DNA from: Candidatus Nomurabacteria bacterium
GTDB taxonomy: Bacteria > Patescibacteriota > Saccharimonadia > Saccharimonadales > Saccharimonadaceae
Assembly (NCBI GenBank): GCA_031275815.1
Contig: JAISOF010000017.1
Coordinates: 1 to 33,284, forward strand
DNA: 33,284 nt
Direction of reading: 5' to 3'
Below are positions 10,359 to 33,284 of this stretch, one piece after another. The notes below the pieces were generated by a model, which was not told the DNA's origin, made no database searches, and worked only from the letters and a program-made list of their open reading frames with translations. The translations under genes were made by a program, and so were the position numbers. How positions within the stretch are numbered: the first letter of the stretch is position 1; every line of letters starts with the position of its first letter.

Positions 10359-10581
10359 GGTCTTGTTGGCACCAACCCCCACTTCACAGGGCTTTTCAAT
10401 CTGTGACAACAGATTGGAGTGAGGAACCGACCTGCCGCAGGTTGGGCCGGATGGCACGGTTCTGTACCTGTGAATGTGGGTGGTTGTGCAACAAGAGCGG
10501 CAAGGGAAGTGCATCAACAAAAGTATTACACCAACAAAACCGGTAAGAAGAATAAGCCCAACAAAGGTGATCACGCAACAA
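10359..10581 (+). ncRNA. candidate structured RNA / inverted-repeat element, copy 1
   Basis: A left arm (10359-10390) pairs with a right arm (10467-10498) in a long stem with a few bulges. Within it lie two hairpins. One is CAATCTGT (10397-10404) with ACAGATTG (10409-10416), loop GACA. The other is GAACCG (10424-10429) with CGGTTC (10457-10462), enclosing ACCTG/CAGGT. A tail follows with CAACAA at 10489, 10515, 10532, 10559 and 10576. The second copy at 16862-17060 keeps the same folds with wobble and compensatory changes. Strand is given as plus because the tail and a possible upstream promoter (near 10232) lie in that direction. It matches no RNA family I know. A MITE-like DNA element is the main alternative. 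Confidence 0.6.
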
Positions 10582-10613
10582 AACCGAAAAACATGTTGCA
10601 AAATGCATTTTTG

Positions 10614-16784: not shown

Positions 16785-16861
16785 TTAATTCGAGCGGATG
16801 GATAGTTTACCAAGCATCACCAGCTTATGTCCGAAAAAATGTAAGATTTGCCTATCGTAAT

Positions 16862-17060
16862 GGCACCAACCCCCACTTCACAGGTCTCTTCAATCTGTGA
16901 CGACAGATTGAAGAGAAAAACCGACTGCCCCCAATAACGATTGGATGGCAACGGTTTTTAGTACCTGTGAATGTGGGTGGTTGTGCGACAAGACCGGCAG
17001 GGGAATTGCACCAACAAGAATAGTACACCAATAAACCCAGCAAAAATAATTATGCAACAA
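16862..17060 (+). ncRNA. candidate structured RNA / inverted-repeat element, copy 2
   Basis: The left arm (16862-16884) pairs with the right arm (about 16963-16990). The first inner hairpin is a perfect 14-base stem: TCTCTTCAATCTGT (16885-16898) with ACAGATTGAAGAGA (16903-16916), loop GACG. The second is AAAAACCG (16916-16923) with CGGTTTTT (16952-16959), enclosing CCAAT/ATTGG. The tail has CGACAA, CAACAA, CAATAA and CAACAA at 16986, 17012, 17029 and 17055, almost the same spacing as in copy 1. Similarity to copy 1 continues to a CAAAATGC-N-TTTTGT end near 17103. It lies convergent to, and just downstream of, two tRNA-Arg genes. Confidence 0.6.
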
Positions 17061-17123
17061 AACCAAGCTCAGCGCGCAACCTTTCCAGCAAAATGCGGTT
17101 TTGTTCAGTTAGTGAAATTGCTC

Positions 17124-33159: not shown

Positions 33160-33184
33160 ATAAGTGGTCTTGTTGCATAATCCC
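33160..33184. repeat. solo half-copy of the inverted-repeat element, near contig end
   Basis: Seventeen bases (33160-33176) are identical to 18600-18616, again shortly after a plus-strand gene. A C-run, A-runs and low-complexity sequence follow to the window end. I see no gene in 33113-33284. Confidence 0.5.
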
Positions 33185-33284
33185 CCCCCAAAAAAACAAA
33201 AACCAAAACCCCCCACCCCTCCCCACTACCCTGCATACTCTGGCAGTCCCATCCGGTTATACCTATTAATCAAACTAGCCCTAA

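Follow-up and report, generated by a model that had tools for sequence, protein, structure and literature searches.

Two copies of a palindromic element lie between genes in the window, by which we mean the whole 33,284-nt stretch of DNA that was analyzed. Copy 1 has two long plus-strand open reading frames, one on either side, and copy 2 has a thymidylate kinase gene on one side and, on the other, two tRNA genes on the minus strand. The initial annotation had described two folded intergenic copies, and both are present, at 10359-10498 and about 16861-16995, each with a long closing stem and two hairpins. Compared with dinucleotide shuffles, the folds had z-scores of -6.0 (copy 1) and -12.0 (copy 2), and no shuffle was equally stable. 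A compensatory difference had also been noticed in the outer pair of hairpin 2, and we found the same: copy 1 has G-C at 10424/10462, where copy 2 has A-T at the corresponding pair. The features of the two copies, and of an IS at the edge of the window, are as follows.

10359..10498, plus strand: copy 1, the 140-bp head of the palindromic element
10359..10384, plus strand: left arm of copy 1, the IS5-like terminal repeat GGTCTTGTTGGCACCAACCCCC
10385..10473, plus strand: conserved three-way-junction core of copy 1, matched by the core covariance model R2 (L001:1527-1615)
10392..10421, plus strand: hairpin 1 of copy 1, with a loop in the GACA/ACAA region here and the loop xACG in the family
10424..10462, plus strand: hairpin 2 of copy 1, closed by the outer G-C pair 10424/10462
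10474..10498, plus strand: right arm of copy 1, whose reverse complement starts GCTCTTGTTGCACAACCACCC (family form GGTCTTGTTGCACAACCACCC)
10499..10585, plus strand: tail of copy 1, with iterated CCAACAA motifs and the end GATCACGCAACAAAACC
16861..16995, plus strand: copy 2 of the element, with a left arm that has diverged in its leftmost ~10 bases
16879..16970, plus strand: core of copy 2, matched by the core covariance model R2 (L026:1519-1610)
16996..17064, plus strand: tail of copy 2, with the end AATTATGCAACAAAACC
33166..33284, minus strand: right end of an IS5-family IS with the terminal repeat GGTCTTGTTGCATAATCCCCC, cut by the contig end
33229..33282, minus strand: last 18 transposase codons of the IS5-family IS, cut by the contig end

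The CCAACAA tails, in the window copies and in other copies of the host genome, are variable, and the modules that precede the head contain TTGTTGG motifs complementary to them.

A count of two copies, although both are real, understated the scale. In the host genome (G000, 1.07 Mb), BLAST returned 47 pieces, which fall at about 40 places. About 15 of the approximately 40 copies sit at contig ends, which indicates that the repeats break the assembly. The larger composites in this genome consist of the head, variable upstream modules and CCAACAA tails. A diverged copy at L009:3108-3227 (contig C16), with the left end ATCTTGTTGCACAATCCCC, lies directly upstream of a gene start and about 1.6 kb from another copy. 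A sister genome of the same genus (G001) carries at least nine core copies, which are about 72% alike to the G000 copies by BLAST. The host SecY was closest to records labelled Candidatus Saccharibacteria, except for the top match (90%), which is labelled Nomurabacteria, and judged by this protein the host is a relative of Saccharibacteria. The record JAITKW010000066.1 is labelled Candidatus Nomurabacteria, yet its SecY groups with Saccharibacteria, and it is possibly mislabelled.

In the host genus the element ends in GGTCTTGTTGGCACC on the left and, reverse-complemented, in GGTCTTGTTGCACAACCACCC on the right. These terminal inverted repeats of the 140-bp unit match an IS5-family IS of the same genome (GGTCTTGTTGCACAA...). 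The ends of the IS are GGTCTTGTTGCACAATCCTCC and GGTCTTGTTGCATAATCCCCC, for comparison with the element end GGTCTTGTTGCACAACCACCC, and the element end shares with the left end of the IS 15 identical leading bases and 18 of 21 bases overall. G000 encodes a 337-aa DDE transposase of the IS5 family (C20:61364-62374; PF13737/PF01609; NCBIfam IS5 model, E 5e-76), and further IS5 transposase fragments lie at its contig ends, the window's own included. Perfect 9-bp direct repeats, ACATTTTAA and TATTGTAAC, abut the ends of two of the seven testable copies in G001. Around 20 copies in G000 no 9-bp target-site duplications were found, neither next to the 140-bp head nor next to the larger composite, and recent movement by IS5 is therefore seen only in G001. 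With IS5-type terminal repeats, 9-bp duplications at two copies of the sister genome, an IS5 transposase in the genome, a short length and no coding capacity, the host-genus element has most of the features by which an IS5 MITE is recognized. It differs from such MITEs in its interior, which is an independently conserved palindromic core found in relatives without these ends. The initial annotation had weighed a new RNA family against a MITE. The answer is both, in that the structure is conserved without a match in Rfam and the element has IS5 ends and, in G001, target duplications.

An ordinary IS5-family MITE would have arisen from the IS by deletion, its interior would be meaningless, and its folding would be a by-product of the inverted repeats. 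The matching ends, the G001 duplications and the transposase in the same genome would fit such an origin, as would another MITE family of this genome, 148 bp long and with clear 9-bp duplications. We nevertheless consider an ordinary MITE unlikely, because the conserved part is the interior and not the ends, the core covaries strongly and is not a piece of the IS, and it occurs in 15 genera with arms mostly unlike IS ends. Indeed, core homologs without IS5 ends already contradict this explanation. The second MITE family of G000 (about 148 bp, about 25 copies) has the ends GGTATTGTTGCATAATTAT and TGCRTTGTTGCATAATTAT. Its copies include L073:1199-1347, L075:885-1032 and L077:976-1123, several lie near contig ends, and one is nested inside the palindromic element (L037).

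The core, of about 85 nt, is a three-way junction that contains two hairpins with xACG loops and, 5 bp down the stem from the second loop, a bulged base. A search of Saccharibacteria genomes with a covariance model had been proposed at the outset. A first model, built on the whole head, gave weak, structure-preserving matches in other genera, and the core model R2 matched in 177 of the 394 family genomes, belonging to 15 of 61 genera, with up to 11 core copies scored per genome. Outside the family, the core model matched none of the genomes in samples of 393 from the order and 380 from the phylum. Among 100 distinct core sequences, a sample that contains related copies, all 34 pairs showed changes on both sides, 91.8% of cells paired, and 0 of 500 shuffles reached such covariation. 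As a control, we slid the 3' partners by one to three columns, and paired cells fell from 92% to less than 40%; the alignment was fitted to the covariance model and pair counts lean towards structure for that reason, but the gap to this control is very large. Rfam was compared as well, as suggested earlier; none of its 4227 families matched at the gathering score, and the best chance match had an E of 0.14. The claim that the structure is kept by compensatory change is thus upheld.

We then considered the mismatches within the arms. On the element's own strand there were 60 G-T and 24 A-C mismatches, with the same direction of excess in sense, antisense and intergenic copies, although the copies are related and therefore non-independent, and strand-biased mutation could contribute. 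Copies antisense to their host gene had 28 wobble and 12 A-C mismatches, so folding of the host mRNA is not the cause of the excess. These counts suggest that the element's own plus strand must fold, either as RNA or as single-stranded DNA.

Covariation had initially been taken to point to a new RNA family. A genuine structured RNA family, regulatory or trans-acting, that was under RNA selection and was later copied around genomes would account for covariation at every pair, for the conserved loops and for the wobble excess, including that in antisense copies. Compensatory changes can, however, also be produced by template switching from one palindrome arm to the other (PMC8794818), and covariation therefore does not simply prove that there is a functional RNA gene. 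Copies of the element are scattered, vary in number, lack a conserved neighbourhood, lie in both orientations inside unrelated genes and are absent from most genera, and the wobble test compares related copies. On balance, we regard an RNA family as improbable.

Outside the host genus, the element is often found within genes. Of 65 flanked copies from other genera, 46 fall within open frames (at least 200 aa) that span the core and both arms, 29 of them antisense and 17 sense. The genes hosting in-frame copies, essential ones among them, include argS, alaS, pheT, obgE, ychF, gatA, mnmA, prmC, uvrD/pcrA and an aminotransferase, and the prmC insertion occurs in the same region in two genomes. 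When MnmA was aligned to a PDB structure, 34 inserted residues were followed by a resumption of the alignment at the very next residue; for ObgE, the alignment broke at the insert and resumed after about 32 net residues. MnmA of G294 also contains a second in-frame insert (L184, residues ~325-375), which resembles the type B element described below.

We compared cores and arms in three genomes (G282, G294 and G028). Between copies within one genome, core identity was 0.78-0.79, whereas arm identity was 0.49-0.58, against 0.46 at random. The two arms of each copy, in contrast, were complementary to each other at 0.78-0.86. By these values, each copy outside the host genus has arms of its own, which are nevertheless complementary to each other.

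The source of the arms could be traced in UvrD, where orthologs of one genus include empty sites (e.g. L211, L217, L219 and L220) and sites filled by this element (L196, L198, L200, L202, L203, L206 and L210). Compared with the shortest empty class, the filled sites have about 26-36 additional residues. Upstream of the insert, codons for RLWxLL are found that occur in empty sites too, which means that the upstream arm is native, and an inverted copy of them lies downstream of the core. This inverted copy had a mean score of 30.4 against the flank of its own genome, 13.2 against the flanks of other genomes and 10-14 against empty sites. At UvrD, therefore, the gene's own sequence forms one arm and an inverted copy of it forms the other, all read in frame. 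The UvrD copies may share one ancestral insertion, and in that case they are evidence for upkeep of the arms rather than for their repeated creation. Remnants such as L214 suggest loss by deletion. The native arm was established with empty orthologs at UvrD only; at other genes, protein alignments agree without deciding the matter. UvrD and MnmA fit a rule that the right arm of the element is the native one in every case, but AlaRS can be read either way, and we set the rule aside.

Other palindromic families, at least two in number and unrelated in their cores, occupy the same UvrD loop, most of them with arms that match the local flank. Type B was found at L197, L199, L201, L207, L208, L209 and L212, and type C at L204, L213 and L224, with L205 in addition.

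Could the palindromes arise without any selection on structure, perfected by replication template switching alone and spread by chance? The mechanism is known (PMC8794818), the UvrD arms match each other and track the local flank, and a similar idea has been proposed for coding palindromes in Nematomorpha mitochondria (PMC6649704). Template switching alone would not account for the recurrence of one homologous core, with its conserved loops, at many unrelated sites, nor for the strand-specific wobble excess, and we consider it quite unlikely. An element moved by a RAYT (Y1 HUH) transposase that recognizes hairpins, the REP-like alternative first entertained, is very improbable, because despite the conserved loops and two Y1 genes in the host genome, Y1 transposases were found in 2 of 20 element-positive and 4 of 20 element-negative genomes and are absent from the element-rich, near-complete genomes G282, G294, G300 and G325, and because two copies have 9-bp duplications, which Y1 elements are not known to make.

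Taken together, we conclude that this is probably a selfish, non-autonomous palindromic element of one Saccharibacteria family, which in the host genus may have become an IS5-mobilized MITE through copied IS ends. Template switching has been reported to create and repair stems (PMC8794818). In the mechanism that we propose, the nascent 3' end of the hairpin would snap back and copy its own flank in inverted orientation, and the same snap-back copying would keep the arms matched. Where a core landed beside an IS end, the copied flank would place IS ends on both sides. The product would be a MITE that the IS5 transposase moves in trans, duplicating 9 bp of the target, and the two window copies would be its intergenic descendants. 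Inverted copying of a flank that contains an IS end could thus yield a MITE in one step, which would join both halves of the evidence. A bolder and more tentative possibility is that the element represents a new class of mobile element. Its insertion would make an inverted flank duplication around a recognized three-way-junction core, and the element would move as a single strand of RNA or DNA that is folded and has a fixed polarity; it would enter essential genes in frame and, given a neighbouring IS end, become a MITE in one step.

We found no enzyme that moves the core outside the host genus; Y1 transposases were not associated with the element. Reverse transcriptase genes occurred in 13 of 20 element-positive and 4 of 20 element-negative genomes, with a fifth negative genome (G021) only below the cut-off; they are absent from G000, G001 and the near-complete G325, and the excess in element-rich genomes is confounded by genus. 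A phage origin was rejected, as phage records yielded no match and viral contigs no exact one. An exact-pattern search of GTDB representatives, among which the closest records may be absent, likewise gave no match. Integron attC sites, considered for the variable arms, were set aside because the copies are dispersed and inside genes.

The palindrome family is apparently undescribed; we found no literature on such elements in Saccharibacteria in a search that covered mainly openly accessible journals. REP/RAYT elements are also dispersed conserved hairpins, but the Saccharibacteria element lacks their Y1 association, is larger and lies within genes. In Nematomorpha mitochondria, palindromes in coding sequence also stay matched in their arms, with template switching suggested as a possible mechanism, but no conserved homologous core was described there, unlike the recurrent central core here (PMC6649704). 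Judged by their described features, the protein-coding palindromic repeats of Rickettsia and Wolbachia (RPE/WPE) are the closest known kind. These are palindromes of 100-150 bp that form several families per lineage, lie in frame in genes, including essential ones, and show gains and losses between orthologs (PMC3767692, PMC10969869). The Saccharibacteria elements resemble them in all of these respects, in that palindromes of this size, from several families, sit in frame inside genes of other genera (the window copies are intergenic) and are gained and lost between orthologs. RPE arms are shared between copies, whereas arms in Saccharibacteria outside the host genus are unique to each copy and, at UvrD, include an inverted copy of the host flank. 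The Saccharibacteria elements further differ in their three-way-junction core with covarying stems, in their phylum and in the IS5 ends of one genus.

So far, in-frame palindromic elements have been known chiefly from Rickettsia and Wolbachia, and their mode of movement is still a question. Saccharibacteria provide an independent, large set in another phylum, with a recognizable core, empty and filled orthologous sites and one lineage adopted by a transposase, which makes the origin of such elements, and one route of MITE birth, directly testable. These elements also warn that covariation alone does not prove an RNA gene. Finally, the element accounts for the inserts of about 30 residues seen in many housekeeping proteins of Saccharibacteria.
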